Below are positions 1,413 through 36,591 of a stretch of DNA of 37,434 nucleotides, piece after piece. The DNA is from a virus. The position numbers and the translations under genes are program-made. The notes under the pieces are model-generated. The model was not told the DNA's origin. It worked only from the letters and a program-made list of their open reading frames with translations, and did not search any database. The stretch lies in the IMG/VR virus record IMGVR_UViG_3300048918_000255, positions 1-37,434 of that record. The stretch is one strand, 5' to 3'. Each line of letters opens with the position of its first letter. Position 1 is the stretch's first letter.

Positions 1413-1859
1413 ATGAACCCCGCAAAACGCGCTTTGAAGGACCGCGACGACCAGCTTTTCTACATCGCAACCGTTCTAGGACTGAAACGGTACGATTCAG
1501 CTCGCCCCTGCGATCGCTGCAACGGTAAGGAACGCTACGTCTCCAATCGCGGTTGCGTGATCTGTTCCGTCGCTCGGAACTCCGGGAAGGCCGCCAAGCA
1601 ACGCCGGCACGCCATGGCTCTGACCCGGGAGGAAGCGCGCACCGCTGGCCAGCGCTATTACTTCCCGATTCACCGCTGCCGGCACGGCCACAAGTCCCGG
1701 TGGAGCGTCCGCTTCAACGAGTGCATGATGTGCGTCCGCAAGGAAGCGAGCCGCGATCTGCATCGCCGGCTGAGCGCCGCTGAGCAACACGCCGCGGATC
1801 TCGAGCGCCTGCCGTCGACGGCGATGACCGAGGAACAGATCCTCCGCCTCGCGGAATAA
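1413..1859 (+). CDS. zinc-ribbon protein, nuclease-associated type (unknown function)
   Basis: A 148-residue basic protein with two Cys clusters. The first is CDRCNGKERYVSNRGCVIC at about residues 34-52 (C-x2-C ... C-x2-C). The second is at about 88-107, with C and H residues ending in CMMC. The paired CxxC knuckles resemble zinc ribbons found next to endonuclease VII/HNH-type phage proteins, but I do not see an HNH catalytic set. DNA or RNA binding is the likely role. The start ATG has AAGGAG 8-13 nt upstream. A terminator-like hairpin follows the stop, so it looks like a single-gene unit. Confidence 0.75.
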   Translation: MNPAKRALKDRDDQLFYIATVLGLKRYDSARPCDRCNGKERYVSNRGCVICSVARNSGKAAKQRRHAMALTREEARTAGQRYYFPIHRCRHGHKSRWSVRFNECMMCVRKEASRDLHRRLSAAEQHAADLERLPSTAMTEEQILRLAE

Positions 1860-1891
1860 CCGCGCCGATCGCCCAACTCACGCACAAAACA

Positions 1892-1920
1892 AGCGCCTGG
1901 CGGCAACGCTGGGCGTTTTT
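1892..1920 (+). terminator. Rho-independent terminator-like hairpin
   Basis: A GC-rich stem (GCGCC at 1893-1897 against GGCGT at 1912-1916) is followed by TTTTT, 33 nt after the stop of the zinc-ribbon gene. The stem is short and its loop is 14 nt, so strength is uncertain. Confidence 0.5.
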
Positions 1921-2002
1921 GCTGCGTCCGTTAGTTCATATTTTGCGAACTTTTGAACTGCGGATGTGTGAAAAAAGGCATCCGCGCGGTCCGCTGCGGA
2001 TT

Positions 2003-2018
2003 TGGCACGAACTTTGCA
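2003..2018 (+). promoter_or_regulatory. sigma-54-type promoter P1 (no gene directly downstream)
   Basis: TGGCACG-AACT-TTGCA: GG at 2004-2005 and GC at 2016-2017, with the diagnostic 10-nt spacing. All consensus positions of the RpoN -24/-12 element match. The next start codon with a ribosome binding site is about 435 nt downstream, so any transcript from here would begin with a long untranslated stretch. Dyads of GCGGA lie just upstream. Confidence 0.55.
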
Positions 2019-2073
2019 CCCACCCCACGCCCTGGCCGAGCGACCGTTGTGCACTGCCGCATGACGAGCGCTT

Positions 2074-2092
2074 TATAATGCGCTAACGCATT
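2074..2092 (+). promoter_or_regulatory. TATAAT -10 box overlapped by a dyad
   Basis: A perfect TATAAT (2074-2079) is overlapped by the dyad AATGCG-CTAA-CGCATT (2077-2092), which would cover the transcription start. No good -35 is visible at 16-18 nt. It looks like a repressible promoter, but nothing is translated directly downstream. Confidence 0.35.
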
Positions 2093-2304
2093 GATTTGTA
2101 ACGGTTTGTAGCGTGCTGGATCGACACGTCTAGCGTATCCACGATCAAGCGTGCGCCTGGTACGCCCTGGACAGCGCTGGTGCTGGACGTAACGCGGTCG
2201 AACGAGCACGACGGATCGCAGCGCACGCTGTAGCGCTGTCTATCGGTGGTGCTGGTGGAGTGATGCGATACGTGCCGGCCTTGCCTGGTGCACGCCTGCC
2301 GCGC

Positions 2305-2340
2305 CACGTCACAACGTGCGCAGGTTTGTCACTAAGTGAC
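2305..2340. promoter_or_regulatory. two adjacent palindromes upstream of P2
   Basis: CACGT-CACA-ACGTG (2305-2318) and GTCACT-A-AGTGAC (2328-2340) are perfect inverted repeats, centred roughly 100-120 nt upstream of the expected start site of P2. This is a typical distance for enhancer-protein sites at sigma-54 promoters. Function is inferred from position only. Confidence 0.35.
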
Positions 2341-2406
2341 GCAATGCGGCGCATGTACGGCGCTACCTGGTGCGCAAGCGTGGCCGTCTAGTGCGGTGCG
2401 GACAGT

Positions 2407-2422
2407 TGGCACGGGCGTTGCA
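2407..2422 (+). promoter_or_regulatory. sigma-54-type promoter P2
   Basis: TGGCACG-GGCG-TTGCA, GG at 2408-2409 and GC at 2420-2421, spacing 10: a full RpoN consensus match. The expected start site is near 2433, giving a leader of about 20 nt that contains CCGGAGA ahead of the ATG at 2454. Confidence 0.65.
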
Positions 2423-2453
2423 TTGGTATCTGCACCTAACCGGAGATACCGCA

Positions 2454-2810
2454 ATGAGCCTGCAACCCCTGAACGCCCGCACCGCATTGGAACTGTCCAC
2501 CAAGAAACGTTGGGCCGCCCGTAGCGCCATCAGTGACGCTCAGCGGCTCAAGGCCGATGGGGATAACGTCGCTATGGTTGCCGCGCTGGACGCCGCCCGT
2601 GCGTTCATTCAGAGCGCACGCGACCTATACGAATACGCCATGCGTACCGGTTCGCTCAGTCATCACTATGTGCGTGCTGGTGGCGGCCGGTGGCACGCCC
2701 GTCTTGACGTTGACGGCATGTGCGCTTGGATATCCGGCAAGCGCTATGCGCAACGCCAGAGCGCTCAGCGCGCCGCCGGTAAGGCGATGGCGCAGTGGGT
2801 GACGGCATGA
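2454..2810 (+). CDS. hypothetical protein, first gene after promoter P2
   Basis: 118 residues of unknown function. The frame is open upstream to 2370, but I chose the ATG at 2454 because CCGGAGA stands 8 nt before it and the sigma-54 element P2 lies just upstream; an earlier start would put the promoter inside the gene. The N-terminal half is alanine-rich and helical. The C-terminal half contains aromatic and basic residues (GGGRWHARLDVDGMCAWISG) that could form a small beta unit. The stop overlaps the next gene's start (ATGA). Confidence 0.7.
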   Translation: MSLQPLNARTALELSTKKRWAARSAISDAQRLKADGDNVAMVAALDAARAFIQSARDLYEYAMRTGSLSHHYVRAGGGRWHARLDVDGMCAWISGKRYAQRQSAQRAAGKAMAQWVTA

Positions 2811-2983
2811 GCCGCCACGCCAGCTATGGTCGCTATTGCGCCGAGACAATCGCGGATTTGCGCGATCAAGCTAACGAGTTTCGCCAGCAAGCCGTAGCGG
2901 CACACGTTCTAGGCGACGCGAAGCGCTACGCCGTGTTGTGCCGCTACGGCGACGATGCGCGAGAAAGAAATCGCCGAACGTGA
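2807..2983 (+). CDS. hypothetical small helical protein
   Basis: 58 residues, start overlapping the previous stop (ATGA at 2807-2810). The sequence is predicted to be mostly helical and charged (YCAETIADLRDQANEFRQQA). I do not recognise it. It is the last gene of the short P2 unit; the next sigma-54-type element begins 18 nt after its stop. Confidence 0.6.
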   Translation: MSRHASYGRYCAETIADLRDQANEFRQQAVAAHVLGDAKRYAVLCRYGDDARERNRRT

Positions 2984-3000
2984 AGCCGCTCGCGAACGCT

Positions 3001-3016
3001 TGGCACGCGCCTTGCA
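3001..3016 (+). promoter_or_regulatory. sigma-54-type promoter P3
   Basis: TGGCACG-CGCC-TTGCA, GG at 3002-3003 and GC at 3014-3015, a perfect RpoN match. The leader (GCACTAACCCACCGGAG) resembles those of P2 and P4, and the ATG at 3052 lies 36 nt from the -12 GC. Confidence 0.65.
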
Positions 3017-3051
3017 TTCATCTCAGCACTAACCCACCGGAGCACGCCGCC

Positions 3052-3135
3052 ATGTTTCTCGCCTTCCTCGCTATCGTCATCGTCACAGGTGCATCGCTGG
3101 GTCTGGCCGTGGTGCACGCGCTCCGCATCCGCTAA
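3052..3135 (+). CDS. 27-residue single-pass membrane microprotein
   Basis: A very small gene directly behind P3 with a strong ribosome binding site (CACCGGAG). The product is almost entirely one hydrophobic helix (FLAFLAIVIVTGASLGLAVV at residues 2-21) with a basic C-terminal end (HALRIR), so insertion in the inner membrane is expected. The dedicated promoter-leader supports translation. Function is unknown; superinfection exclusion or host membrane modulation would suit the size, but this is speculation. Confidence 0.6.
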   Translation: MFLAFLAIVIVTGASLGLAVVHALRIR

Positions 3136-3148
3136 AGGACACAACGCA

Positions 3149-3367
3149 ATGAGCAATAAAGAGACTTGGTATTGCGCCGCGTGCGGCTCGCTGGACATCC
3201 GCCACGATGCCGTCGCGGCATTCAACCCTCACACCCAGGAATTTGAAGTCGTGGCCGTGCTGGACGATACGTGGTGCGAGGATTGCCTCGCGGCGGATGA
3301 CTCCGGCAACAACACCGGGGAACCGGCTTTTGGTATCCCTGGCGAAACGAACGAATGCGCCGACTGA
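3149..3367 (+). CDS. small zinc-ribbon protein
   Basis: 72 residues. YCAACG near residue 8 and WCEDC near residue 42 give two CxxC knuckles, a typical single zinc ribbon, with an acidic C-terminal tail. AAGGA precedes the ATG by 9 nt. It lies 13 nt after the membrane microprotein and probably shares the P3 transcript. The fold is similar to short zinc-ribbon proteins common in phages; a nucleic-acid or protein-binding role is inferred. Confidence 0.7.
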   Translation: MSNKETWYCAACGSLDIRHDAVAAFNPHTQEFEVVAVLDDTWCEDCLAADDSGNNTGEPAFGIPGETNECAD

Positions 3368-3382
3368 CCCGCCGCGTCACAC

Positions 3383-3412
3383 ATTGACGCAATCGTCAAT
3401 CTAACCGACAAT
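3383..3412 (+). promoter_or_regulatory. sigma-70 promoter with operator dyad over the -35
   Basis: TTGACG (3384-3389), 17-nt spacer, GACAAT (3407-3412). The -35 lies in the inverted repeat ATTGACG-CAAT-CGTCAAT (3383-3400). The predicted start is about 20 nt before the ATG at 3438. The same dyad core occurs at 14441-14455. Confidence 0.5.
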
Positions 3413-3437
3413 CCACGTCACTTTGGAGTCTGACCAT

Positions 3438-3620
3438 ATGCAAACCTATTTGAACGAACTCACCGATGCGGAACGCGAGGCCGTAGAATTCGCGCTTGAT
3501 ATTTTCCGCGACGCCTGCGCTGAATTGACTATTAAACTTGCGGGCGATGACCGCGCAGGGAATGCCGCCGAAGCGTTGGCGGTATACCTTCACGCTAGCC
3601 GCAGCGAAAGCGGGGAGTGA
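3438..3620 (+). CDS. hypothetical acidic helical protein
   Basis: 60 residues, mostly helical and acidic (LNELTDAEREAVEFALDIFR). I chose the ATG at 3438 because GGAG stands 9 nt upstream; the in-frame TTG at 3423 lacks such a site. It is the first gene behind the sigma-70-type promoter at 3384-3412. Not recognised. A small acidic helical protein could be a protein-binding inhibitor, but nothing in the sequence proves this. Confidence 0.6.
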   Translation: MQTYLNELTDAEREAVEFALDIFRDACAELTIKLAGDDRAGNAAEALAVYLHASRSESGE

Positions 3621-3625
3621 TAGTC

Positions 3626-3895
3626 ATGTCCGTCCTGTCTATCATTCGCAACCTCTTGCCGCTCGCTATTGCAAAGGCGGAAAACCTTCGCGAAGCCGCG
3701 AACGGCGATGCAGAGTTTGGCGACCTCGCCGACCGCGCTACCGCCGCCGTTGTGGCCGCCCAGCTGGCACTGGACAGCGAGGAACCGCTCGCACGTCTCA
3801 TTGAGGCCGCCAAGCCTTTCAGGCGTTGCGGATGCAAGCCGCTGACCTCTCAGGTTGAGGCATTGCGTGACGCGCTCGCCGCGTTTGGAGCGTGA
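3626..3895 (+). CDS. hypothetical alanine-rich helical protein
   Basis: 89 residues, 5 nt after the previous stop. The ATG at 3626 has GGGGAG with 8-nt spacing. The first 16 residues (MSVLSIIRNLLPLAIA) are hydrophobic and could be a membrane-associated helix. The rest is helical and Ala-rich (ADRATAAVVAAQLALDSEEP), with CGC near residue 71. Not recognised. Confidence 0.6.
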   Translation: MSVLSIIRNLLPLAIAKAENLREAANGDAEFGDLADRATAAVVAAQLALDSEEPLARLIEAAKPFRRCGCKPLTSQVEALRDALAAFGA

Positions 3896-3899
3896 CGCC

Positions 3900-4085
3900 A
3901 TGGCACGCAGCTACCAAGTAACGTTGCCGGGCTATAACGGCGCAACCGATGAGACGGATCACCTTGTGAAATGGGTCCGCGCGGATTCTCTCAGTGCAGT
4001 GCTTGTGTGGGCTCCGCAAGGGTCCATCGTGGAAGAATTGGACTTTAATGTGCCAGCCGAAGAAGCAGACGTCATCCTTTGCTGA
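3900..4085 (+). CDS. hypothetical small soluble protein
   Basis: 61 residues, likely an alpha/beta domain (SYQVTLPGYNGATDETDHLV near the N-terminus). The ATG at 3900 has GGAG 9 nt upstream, inside the end of the preceding gene. It is the last gene of the 3438 unit; the stop is 5 nt before P4. Not recognised. Confidence 0.6.
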   Translation: MARSYQVTLPGYNGATDETDHLVKWVRADSLSAVLVWAPQGSIVEELDFNVPAEEADVILC

Positions 4086-4090
4086 GTGAT

Positions 4091-4106
4091 TGGCACGTGC
4101 CTTGCA
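4091..4106 (+). promoter_or_regulatory. sigma-54-type promoter P4
   Basis: TGGCACG-TGCC-TTGCA, GG at 4092-4093, GC at 4104-4105. Stop codons precede and follow in the frame that would read this element as Leu-Ala-Arg-Ala-Leu-His, so it is conserved as DNA, not as peptide. The leader GCACCTACCTAGAGA matches the P2 leader, and the ATG lies 33 nt past the GC. Confidence 0.65.
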
Positions 4107-4138: not shown

Positions 4139-4303
4139 ATGAGCCGTCGTGACCGTCACCCCTACCCGTTCCACGTTGGCGCAACGTGCGCCCCGCAAAT
4201 CGTCGCGAGTCTGAGCAAGCCGCGCAAGTCTCCGTGGCCCGTCGTGGCATTCGTCACGGTGTTTATCTTTGCCGCTGCGTTTGCGCTGCGCCACGCGCTG
4301 TAA
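4139..4303 (+). CDS. 54-residue single-pass membrane protein
   Basis: Directly behind P4. Residues 1-32 are polar and basic; residues about 33-50 (WPVVAFVTVFIFAAAFAL) form one membrane helix, and the short tail is basic. Topology with N-terminus inside is plausible given Arg/Lys before the helix. Like the P3 gene, this is a tiny membrane protein behind a sigma-54-type element. Function unknown. Confidence 0.6.
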   Translation: MSRRDRHPYPFHVGATCAPQIVASLSKPRKSPWPVVAFVTVFIFAAAFALRHAL

Positions 4304-5314: not shown

Positions 5315-5342
5315 GCCGTGCGACTGGCACGCAACACCGGAG
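5312..5342 (+). repeat. 31-bp leader repeat, copy 1 (contains TGGCACG)
   Basis: Identical over 31 bp to 5847-5877. It begins in the T run of a terminator, contains TGGCACG (the -24 half of the sigma-54 element) and ends in ACCGGAG, the ribosome binding site of the next gene. The -12 half is absent, as if about 20 nt were deleted from a P3-like promoter-leader. Confidence 0.7.
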
Positions 5343-5351
5343 CGGCTACAC

Positions 5352-5849: not shown

Positions 5850-5877
5850 GCCGTGCGACTGGCACGCAACACCGGAG
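5847..5877 (+). repeat. 31-bp leader repeat, copy 2 (contains TGGCACG)
   Basis: Exact copy of 5312-5342, again running from a terminator T run to the ACCGGAG ribosome binding site. The -24-like TGGCACG is present, the -12 element is not. Confidence 0.7.
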
Positions 5878-9397: not shown

Positions 9398-9700
9398 TTA
9401 GGCGATGAGCTTACGTGCGAGATCCTGAAGATCCTCCGGCGCCTTGCGGGCCTGGGCATCCTTGGCGAGCAAACCCTGCAAGACGATGCGCGGGTTCTGG
9501 CGCTTGACGGCGAAGCGCATCAGCTCCCGGCGGAAGTGCGGCATCGTGCCGAAGTGGTGCGACACGAGCGCTTCACTCACGCCAGCGGCTTCGGCGATCT
9601 GCTTGCGACTGATGCGGTCATAGCCGTCACGCTCGGCAATCTTCAGCGACGCCACGAGGATATCGGACTTGCGCTGTTCGGGTTTTAGATTCGTGGTCAT
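9398..9700 (-). CDS. stand-alone TetR-type DNA-binding domain protein
   Basis: 100 residues. Residues about 13-60 (AERDGYDRISRKQIAEAAGV, then SEALVSHHFGTMPHFRRELM) are a clear TetR N-terminal helix-turn-helix. The usual ligand-binding and dimerisation half (another 100 or more residues) is missing; only about 35 helical residues follow. It is therefore a truncated-form regulator that is probably intact as a phage gene, since neighbours are closely spaced and the frame is clean. Likely a repressor of phage or host promoters. A dyad (GATAG-N6-CTATC) lies 35 nt upstream of its start. How it dimerises without the C-terminal half is unclear. Confidence 0.8.
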   Translation of the reverse strand: MTTNLKPEQRKSDILVASLKIAERDGYDRISRKQIAEAAGVSEALVSHHFGTMPHFRRELMRFAVKRQNPRIVLQGLLAKDAQARKAPEDLQDLARKLIA

Positions 9701-34499: not shown

Positions 34500-35031
34500 G
34501 GGTCAGATGCTCCGTGTAGTTGCAAGGATTCGGCTGGCCCCAGCGGTAGAGATGAAACAGGTAGAACCCCTGGGCGATGCCGACCCGGCCACCGTTGTCG
34601 CGCACATCTTGCGTGAACTTCTGGTCGAAGTAAATCGACCGCTCTACGAAGGGGTGGCGCTTCCAAACGGCCTTGGGGAAGATCATCAGCATGGCGGCCA
34701 CGGGGCCAGTCTTCAGCTCGCGCACCTCGGTACCGTGAGCGTGCCAGCGTTGGGCGGCGATCTCTTGGTGCTTGGTGACGCTGTCCTCGCAGCTCAGAAC
34801 GCCGCCGTGGAGCTGGTAGGGGGCGCGGAGCCGGTTGGTCATGCACCCCAGCAGATCATAGGCGCGGTTGTCGCTGACGATCCGCTCGAGCTGACGGCCC
34901 CAATCGGGCGCCATGAACAGCGTGTCGCCGTCCCGGACGCATACCATGGCGTTGTCGGGCAAGAGGTCGATCGCGTCGTTCAAACCGCCGCCGATGTCCC
35001 CGGTTTTCCATGCGATGACGTGACGGATCAC
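34492..35031 (-). CDS. GT-A type glycosyltransferase (third of three)
   Basis: 179 residues from a GTG overlapping the previous stop (GTGA). DGD at 34-36 in VCVRDGDTLF is a DxD-type nucleotide-sugar metal site; later YFDQKFTQDVRDNGGRVGIA and YLFHLYRWG resemble the acceptor side of short family-2-like enzymes. Smaller than typical GT2 enzymes, but both halves of the fold are represented. It sits between two other transferases and the connector gene, inside the virion operon, so a virion protein or phage-modified host glycan may be the acceptor. The substrate is unknown. Confidence 0.7.
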   Translation of the reverse strand: MIRHVIAWKTGDIGGGLNDAIDLLPDNAMVCVRDGDTLFMAPDWGRQLERIVSDNRAYDLLGCMTNRLRAPYQLHGGVLSCEDSVTKHQEIAAQRWHAHGTEVRELKTGPVAAMLMIFPKAVWKRHPFVERSIYFDQKFTQDVRDNGGRVGIAQGFYLFHLYRWGQPNPCNYTEHLTHA

Positions 35032-35945
35032 GAGAAGCTCTCCAATAGTTGCCGGCGCAGCTCGTTGGCGCGGCTGAGATCATAGTTCTGACGCACGTGC
35101 TCGGCCAGCGCTTGCCCGCGCTCGAGGCGGTACTCGCCATCGGCCAGCAGCCGGCGAACCTCGTGGCGCCAGTCGTGCACGTTGTGCGCGTAGTTGACCG
35201 CGTGCGCGTCCTGCGGATTGAGGTAGGGGTGCACGGCCGAGGTGACGATCGGCAGGCCGCGGCAACCCGCCTCGAGCACTTTCAGGTTGCTCTTGCACCG
35301 ATTGAAGAAGGTATCGCGCAGCGGAGCGATGGCCACGCCATGCCCTTCGTAAACAGCCATGTAGCTATCGACGACCTTCTCGCGCACGAACTCGGCACGA
35401 GGCAACGCTCGGGCCATTTTCTGCCAGGATGGATCGAACGGACGCCAGCCGGCCATCGTCAGCGGAAGCGTGGCCATGGCATCGCCGAACTCGCCAATGT
35501 CGTTGACGTGGCTGCTACCGCCGGCATAGACGACGGTTGCGCCATAACGCTCGTTGCGCACAAACTGCCCGATATCGAACGGCAATGCGTTCGGCACGAC
35601 ATGCACGTTAGCGTTGAGCGGCCGAATGGCCTCGGCGAGCTGACCGTGCGTGCACCACACCATGTCAGCCGCACGCATGCAGGCTTCCAGCTCCGGCCGG
35701 TTGCGCTGCTCATAGGCATCGTGGAGCGGATGATCGGCGTCGAGGTGCCAATAGTCGTCCACGTCGACCACGATGCGGTAGCCGGCTTGCTTCATGCGCT
35801 CAACCTTGCCAGCGTCGCTCGCCGGGCGTCGATTCACGATGTAGACCGGCACACGAGGCTTGGCTTGGAGATGCGCGAAGGGAAGTGAGATGCGGTGATA
35901 GCCGCAACTGGTACGGCCTGGTTCTTCCAGCTCAAGCAGGCTCAT
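35028..35945 (-). CDS. GT-B type glycosyltransferase (second of three)
   Basis: 305 residues. The N-terminal Rossmann half includes RIVVDVDDYWHLDADHPLHD and VHVVPNALPFD; the C-terminal half contains FFNRCKSNLKVLEAGCRGLP followed by IVTSAVHPY, the nucleotide-sugar binding pattern of GT4-like enzymes (Lys and Glu conserved in K-x2-E). The end is a helix (EHVRQNYDLSRANELRRQLL). It overlaps the first transferase by 14 nt and the third by 4 nt. It should transfer a sugar from a nucleotide donor. Confidence 0.82.
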   Translation of the reverse strand: MSLLELEEPGRTSCGYHRISLPFAHLQAKPRVPVYIVNRRPASDAGKVERMKQAGYRIVVDVDDYWHLDADHPLHDAYEQRNRPELEACMRAADMVWCTHGQLAEAIRPLNANVHVVPNALPFDIGQFVRNERYGATVVYAGGSSHVNDIGEFGDAMATLPLTMAGWRPFDPSWQKMARALPRAEFVREKVVDSYMAVYEGHGVAIAPLRDTFFNRCKSNLKVLEAGCRGLPIVTSAVHPYLNPQDAHAVNYAHNVHDWRHEVRRLLADGEYRLERGQALAEHVRQNYDLSRANELRRQLLESFS

Positions 35946-36591
35946 AGGCGACGTGAATCCGTGTCGAGTTGCACTCCTGAATAAAGCGATCGCGGTTGCG
36001 CGCGATGCCTGCCTGTTTCTCGGCGACCGTCAAGTTCGGCGTCGGATTCCGCGCGTACACGTCCTCGCTGAAGATGTAGCTCGGCGCGCGAAGCAGTGAC
36101 GGCATGCCTGGGCCGTTGCACAAGCCGGAACGACGAAGGCGCGCATGACGCTCGCTGTCCTCGTAGCCGTAGCCCTTGAATGCCGGGTCGAAATAGCCGA
36201 CCGTCTCGAAGCATTTGCGCGTCTGCGACGAGAAGCAACCCACGACGCCATCCCACCACACCACCTCACCGTCGAAGGCCGTGGGTCGACTCTTGAACGC
36301 TTCGGGCAAGCCGAGAAACTCGAGCTTGTACGCGGCATGGCTCTCGAGAAAGTAGTTCTCCCAACCGGCCATCAGCGGGTAGCAATCATCGTCGAACATG
36401 AAGACGTGATCGCAGGCTTCCTCGACGAATAGCGCACGCAAGCATTCGTTACGTGAGAACGCAGGCCCTCGCATATTGACGTCTTCGAACACGACGAGAT
36501 GCGCGGCTTCAAAACCGCCGCGCGAGTGCTGGAAAAGAGCGGGGTTAAGAGTGCGAACGCCAGCGGTGATAACGCCGATACCGACCTTCAC
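35932..36591 (-). CDS. GT-A type glycosyltransferase (first of three)
   Basis: 219 residues from a GTG overlapping the previous stop. FDDDC at 66-70 gives a DxD metal site, and WWDGVVGCFSSQTRKCFETV followed by GYFDPAFKGYGYEDSERHAR is the WxG/EDxE-like acceptor-side signature found in polypeptide GalNAc-transferase-like and GT2 enzymes. Complete for a minimal GT-A domain. Opens the three-gene transferase cluster downstream of the capsid genes. Confidence 0.78.
   Translation of the reverse strand: MKVGIGVITAGVRTLNPALFQHSRGGFEAAHLVVFEDVNMRGPAFSRNECLRALFVEEACDHVFMFDDDCYPLMAGWENYFLESHAAYKLEFLGLPEAFKSRPTAFDGEVVWWDGVVGCFSSQTRKCFETVGYFDPAFKGYGYEDSERHARLRRSGLCNGPGMPSLLRAPSYIFSEDVYARNPTPNLTVAEKQAGIARNRDRFIQECNSTRIHVAYEPA

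Follow-up and report, generated by a model that had tools for sequence, protein, structure and literature searches.

We analysed a siphovirus-like phage contig of 37,434 bases from IMG/VR (record IMGVR_UViG_3300048918_000255; this whole stretch is called the window) in which four copies of the sigma-54-type promoter motif TGGCACG-N4-TTGCA, named P1 to P4, lie along a run of small plus-strand genes and in which P2 is preceded by an array of short boxes like those ahead of bacterial type IV pilin genes. It is probable, judging from this likeness, that the phage imitates the pilA promoter of its host and that the host activator PilR together with the host sigma factor RpoN (sigma-54) would switch on small takeover genes. 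If this is true, a single regulator that can be named connects phage expression with the type IV pilus machinery, type IV pili being the receptor for many phages, and there is a direct link between the state of the host and the gene programme of the phage. Host physiology, and possibly the receptor, would then be predictable from phage DNA alone.

Four predicted -24/-12 promoters in a run of small phage genes

The four promoters, compared with a near relative of the window, the viral contig L005, are as follows.

2003 to 2018, plus strand: P1, consensus -24/-12 promoter TGGCACGAACTTTGCA, exact in L005
2407 to 2422, plus strand: P2, consensus -24/-12 promoter TGGCACGGGCGTTGCA, 66 bases 3' of the enhancer palindrome described below
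3001 to 3016, plus strand: P3, consensus -24/-12 promoter TGGCACGCGCCTTGCA, overlapping the 3' end of the upstream reading frame
4091 to 4106, plus strand: P4, consensus -24/-12 promoter TGGCACGTGCCTTGCA, with a degraded copy TGGCGCGCTCCCTGCA in L005

An earlier sequence-only reading of this DNA had claimed four exact plus-strand sites with the strict GG-N10-GC spacing, and this was confirmed: the spacing is correct at all four, there is no further exact match in the window, and in 100 dinucleotide shuffles the mean number of matches was 0.01 and never more than one. A scan of the window with a sigma-54 weight matrix, as had been suggested, gave 18.8 for each of the four sites, and the next best score was 14.9, which is within the background. 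The distance from the last base of the motif to the ATG is 31 nucleotides at P2 (ATG at 2454), 35 nucleotides at P3 (ATG at 3052) and 32 nucleotides at P4 (ATG at 4139), so that a small gene does follow closely behind three of the sites as had been stated, and the range of 31 to 35 nucleotides is near the 32 to 37 given there. No gene lies close downstream of P1, and the roughly 390 bases from there up to P2 are apparently non-coding.

The reading frame upstream of P3, which ends in ...RERLARALHSSQH* (stop codon at 3030 to 3032), contains the P3 motif in its 3' end. P4 of L005 (...RERLARSLHN*) and the second promoter of a distant relative, L133 (...RRLAR*), likewise overlap the end of the gene before them, all three overlaps being in one common frame (RLAR). 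There is no such overlap at P1, P2 and P4 or at P3 of L005, and because these sites are outside such reading frames the motif is conserved at the level of DNA. An origin of the motif in coding constraint was rejected for this reason, and the earlier statement about conservation at the DNA level holds with the correction that the P3 motif does overlap the end of a reading frame.

The prediction that P1 to P4 are promoters for the host RpoN polymerase is well supported by the consensus and its spacing, by the position of P2 to P4 before small genes and by conservation in two related contigs, and to that extent the sequence-only reading was right. It was also right that the window encodes no AAA+ activator: the PF00158 domain was found neither in the window nor in L005 and L133, contigs which may be incomplete, and hence the activator would have to be supplied by the host.

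An enhancer-like array upstream of P2

Two box arrays were located in the promoter region.

2308 to 2340, plus strand: candidate enhancer (upstream activating sequence) GTCAC AAC GTGCG CAGGTTT GTCAC TAA GTGAC, two palindromic sites 20 bp apart
3364 to 3388, plus strand: weaker second enhancer-like array CTGAC-N7-GTCAC-N3-TTGAC, overlapping a sigma-70-like -35 element

The first array, GTCAC-N3-GTGCG-N7-GTCAC-N3-GTGAC, is centred at about -99 relative to P2; its core palindrome is at 2328 to 2340 and the upstream copy is imperfect. Scored as a two-site array it reached 18 out of 20, and the best of 200 simulated contigs reached 17. The palindrome GTCACNNNGTGAC occurs once each in the window, L005 and L133 and always just upstream of a sigma-54 site. 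From the palindrome centre to the -24 element there are 73 bp in the window, 73 bp in L005 and 62 bp in L133, which is a difference of one helical turn. The weaker array falls within a 78-bp block that is conserved with L005.

The array resembles those of bacterial pilin promoters

When 84,980 bacterial and archaeal species genomes were searched for the composite pattern, that is, the palindrome 46 to 76 bases before a sigma-54 site, 46 loci were found, 15 of which immediately precede a type IV pilin gene (FTLIELM...). These 15 come from Rhodocyclaceae, Methylophaga, Lysobacterales, Solimicrobium, Steroidobacter and others, and the spacing between palindrome and promoter in them is 62 to 65 or 72 to 75. 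No other recognised class recurs among the 46 loci. The wider array at the pilA sites is (C/G)TGAC-N7-GTCAC-WWW-GTGAC and the same array is present in many of the phage sites. A further set of pilin loci was collected independently, by protein similarity, from 41 Lysobacterales genomes. In 26 of 30 cases there is a -24/-12 site upstream, and at several of these loci the box array is present with one or two deviations, as in GTGACAATTTTTGTCACTTTCTGAC. Contrary to expectation, the Lysobacterales did not show a perfect palindrome ahead of pilA, the box array there usually being imperfect.

A matrix built from the pilin promoters alone was run over the whole window with 150 simulated contigs as the null, and the four best scores, 22.3, 18.2, 15.4 and 13.0, were all in the promoter region. 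The array at 2308 to 2340 accounts for the scores of 22.3 and 18.2, the former exceeding the null maximum of 18.4 (95th percentile 15.0), and the array at 3364 to 3388 is the third best match with 15.4 against that 95th percentile of 15.0. The best match of this matrix in L133 scored 29.4 and is the site before the first promoter.

It is known that PilRX and RpoN2 drive pilA in Xanthomonas (PMC8657755), and the control of pilA by PilR and RpoN has been studied in Pseudomonas aeruginosa (PMC6058289). Bacterial pilA promoters under PilS-PilR and RpoN control (in P. aeruginosa by PilR, in Xanthomonas oryzae by PilRX/RpoN2) are like P2 of the window in having a -24/-12 element together with a box array near -100, an arrangement that is found in the window at P2 only, and in having (C/G)TGAC and GTCAC boxes with N7 and N3 spacing. 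What differs is that the bacterial unit drives pilin whereas the unit in the window drives small phage genes. The PilR boxes of P. aeruginosa, (C/G)TGTC, are one base off the GTCAC-type boxes seen here, and in the papers covered by the literature search there was no report of direct PilR binding to boxes of the GTCAC form. The speculation in the sequence-only reading that phage gene expression might be coupled to pili has gained independent support from the array before P2.

Four bacterial loci (L262, L287, L290 and L295) encode, behind the same pilA-type enhancer and a sigma-54 promoter, an uncharacterised protein (EVIAVL...REVIGYE, about 80 residues) whose gene is a possible new PilR target.

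Conservation and loss in related contigs

In L005, whose primase is 98% identical to that of the window, P1 to P3 are unchanged; P4 differs at two positions, neither of them in the GG or the GC. A block that is 94% identical between the window and L005 starts at base 3000, at P3, and upstream of it sequence and genes are unrelated, which indicates that cassettes are exchanged at the promoter. The 78-bp block at 3363 to 3440 is 96% conserved with L005 and is flanked by unlike genes. In L133, with a primase about 53% identical, there are two sigma-54 sites in the corresponding region of small genes beyond the primase and on the same relative strand. Of the 80 viral loci found to encode a related primase, only L005 and L133 have two or more near-exact sites, and sigma-54 sites are absent from L355, L130, L131 and L134. 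The primase of L355 is 81% identical to that of L133, and in the corresponding place L355 has a sigma-70-like promoter, TTGACG-N17-TAACTT, from which it follows that sigma-54 control is exchangeable and not universal in this lineage.

This sigma-70-like promoter, within the first 250 bases of the reverse strand of L355, stands in place of the sigma-54/PilR-type unit and precedes a microprotein that may be a homologue of the one behind P3 (3 of 1000 shuffles reach an equal score). At the contig ends of L133/L353 and L355, just upstream of the small-gene region, there is a 17-bp tandem repeat (GGGCACGCTCAGCACCA, GGGCAGGCGCATCACCA), possibly an origin or an assembly break.

Recurrence of the unit in other viral contigs

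The composite pattern was found at 47 loci in viral contigs compared to 12 for a control palindrome with its half-sites reversed. Where the pattern leaves bases free, these agree at both ends with the sigma-54 consensus at 38 of the 48 true places and at no control (0 of 12), and the centre of the palindrome is all A/T in 35 of the 48 viral places compared to 2 of the 12 controls. Spacing in the viral units shows helical phasing (R 0.46 at 10.5 bp; the p value of 1e-4 is nominal, as not all of the sites are independent). The genes behind these units are nearly all unrelated and mostly small, and a pilin gene is behind none of the 48. About 40 other viral contigs (L210 to L256) are thus like the window in their enhancer array and spacing classes and in having mostly small genes of unknown function behind the unit, but they usually have one unit whereas the window has an array of four promoters. 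If the pilA reading is right, the presence of the enhancer unit in so many contigs suggests a recurrent strategy.

Weak PF00158 matches were obtained in 2 of 27 other enhancer-bearing contigs, two per protein of about 830 residues; as activators these proteins were rejected because they look like other AAA+ proteins. In L217, and also in the bacterial contig L284, two divergent sigma-54 promoters surround one palindrome at spacings of 57 and 63 and face different small genes. L082, a viral contig of 93.9 kb, has ten near-consensus sigma-54 motifs in about 2.1 kb on one strand (1500 to 3650, minus strand), mostly without a pilA-type palindrome, and no PF00158 activator was found in it. Dense TGGCA..TTGCA arrays with a spacing of about 47 bp occur on both strands in L055, L064, L088, L045, L032, L097, L057, L091, L096, L100, L107 and L126, several of them with TCAACAAAGGTTGA 32 bases upstream; they were rejected as a promoter system since they appear to be a dispersed repeat.

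Comparison with phage YuA and other named phages

The use of sigma-54 promoters by a phage is already known from Pseudomonas phage YuA (Mesyanzhinovviridae), whose -24/-12 promoters were reportedly described by Ceyssens et al. in 2008. The YuA record NC_010116 has three annotated '-24/-12' promoters with 'high activity (2000 MU)', all before structural genes, which bears out the mention of such promoters in YuA in the sequence-only reading. YuA and the window are alike in having -24/-12 promoters of the type used by host sigma-54 RNA polymerase. Those of YuA, however, are off the strict consensus and precede structural genes, whereas those of the window have the exact consensus, precede small genes of unknown function and not structural genes, and are accompanied by an array of the pilA enhancer type. 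The development of YuA is reported to depend strictly on host sigma-54, and such use by phages has been described as rare (PMC5053324). The pattern TGGCAYRN4YTGCW has no match in phages B2, SppYZU01, XAJ2, DLP1, Sonora, M6 and YuA, and one match in Langgrundblatt1. A PilR-type enhancer in phages was not found described; the literature search, with terms linking phage promoters to PilR, found no paper, subscription journals being mostly outside its coverage.

Proposed mechanism and alternative explanations

The most likely binder of the array at 2308 to 2340 is the host PilR, because the array recurs before pilin genes. PilR would bind there, centred at about -99 of P2, loop to P2 and remodel the closed complex with ATP. 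Enhancers of the PilR class can work from remote positions and in either direction, and for this reason the one array may also serve P1 (about 320 bp upstream of it), P3 (about 660 bp away) and P4 (about 1.75 kb away), perhaps with the weaker array at 3364 to 3388 helping the remote promoters. Small, exchangeable takeover genes would in this way be expressed, presumably early, in cells with an active pilin programme, to the putative benefit of the phage; a takeover role is suggested by their size, their place and their having no known family. A decoy effect on pilA is also possible. The wider proposal would be that several phage lineages copied the host pilus-gene enhancer-promoter, that here one enhancer with four promoters lets the pilus programme license the takeover genes, and that multiplying phage DNA draws PilR off pilA, so that piliation falls and rival phages are shut out; taken as a whole we regard this as speculative and rather doubtful.

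Several observations count against pilA imitation. Only P2 has an array at the canonical distance, P1, P3 and P4 being without one of their own there, and L355 and other relatives are without the enhancer-promoter unit. The composite with a perfect palindrome was found in 2 of 299 Lysobacterales genomes (control 0 of 299); such palindromes are thus rare ahead of pilA in this group, and what the window matches is the box pattern and not a fixed word. Of 119 viral loci picked on the -24/-12 motif alone, one has the palindrome nearby, which indicates that most sigma-54-like sites linked to phages either belong to some other kind or are spurious; as some of the 119 loci are also repeat-like, the palindrome-promoter unit forms a class of its own and is no general feature.

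An activator of some sort is required at sigma-54 promoters, and with genuine RpoN promoters the palindrome could be bound by a host enhancer-binding protein other than PilR, such as FleQ, NtrC or PspF. GTCAC..GTGAC is like the GTCA..TGAC of FleQ-type sites, and the unit is also found before bacterial genes other than pilin. However, type IV pilin is the only class that recurs among the recognised ones (15 of the 46 bacterial loci) and both the spacing and the box array fit pilA promoters, and we consider a different host activator unlikely. The palindrome could instead be the operator of a phage regulator beside genuine RpoN promoters, for the array sits in a control region and the window encodes a TetR_N domain protein (9398 to 9700), such proteins being binders of palindromes. 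This is quite improbable, as bacterial pilA genes are preceded by the same array and phages B2 and SppYZU01 have TetR-annotated genes but neither the palindrome nor a -24/-12 match.

A further explanation takes the motifs for recombination junctions, or for repeats associated with gene starts, by which gene cassettes are shuffled, and regards their likeness to sigma-54 promoters as secondary. The start of the block conserved with L005 at the P3 motif with unlike genes upstream, the overlap of the motif with gene ends in one shared frame and the similar leaders speak for it; yet the constant and varying positions of the core follow sigma-54 rules, the N4 spacer varies, and the enhancer is at the proper distance and phase. 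As an account in place of promoters it is very improbable, although both roles can coexist. Chance resemblance hardly deserves belief: 12-base motifs do turn up randomly in large collections and some exact viral matches look like dispersed repeats, but four sites were found where 0.01 was expected, they are conserved in relatives, and on these statistics chance is already refuted. Imitation of the pilA promoter thus remains our preferred explanation.

Gene context and other features of the window

The minus strand of the window encodes the structural proteins (tape measure, tail, head-tail connector and head), and there is a replication module with primase, helicase, polymerase A, exonuclease and single-stranded DNA-binding protein. 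By primase and polymerase the nearest named phages are Stenotrophomonas phage B2 and Shewanella phage SppYZU01 (43 to 47% identity), and a DNA search of the phage collection with the window gave no near relative. The run of small genes with P1 to P4 lies between the late genes on one side and the primase on the other, on the strand opposite to the structural genes. Its features are listed here.

2454 to 2810, plus strand: small gene behind P2, 118 residues, 94% identical in L005
3052 to 3135, plus strand: microprotein behind P3, membrane-type, 27 residues, MFLAFLAIVIVTGASLGLAVVHALRIR, read from sequence
3384 to 3412, plus strand: sigma-70-like promoter TTGACG-N17-GACAAT, preceding a gene that starts at 3439, read from sequence
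4139 to 4303, plus strand: small gene behind P4, 54 residues, one membrane segment predicted by eye

Searches of PHROG and Pfam with the products of the P2 and P4 genes gave no match. The small gene at 2808 to 3032 seems to be frameshifted compared to its homologue, which in L005 is located before P4 and not before P3; the frameshift may be real or a sequencing error. An intergenic leader, GTGCGACTGGCACGCAACACCGGAG, is repeated at 5319 to 5345 and 5853 to 5877, each time 3' of a GC-rich hairpin and before a different small gene; it has the -24-like half and lacks the -12. In the late region (35028 to 36591, minus strand) there are two glycosyltransferase genes whose products could alter the surface of the virion or of the host.

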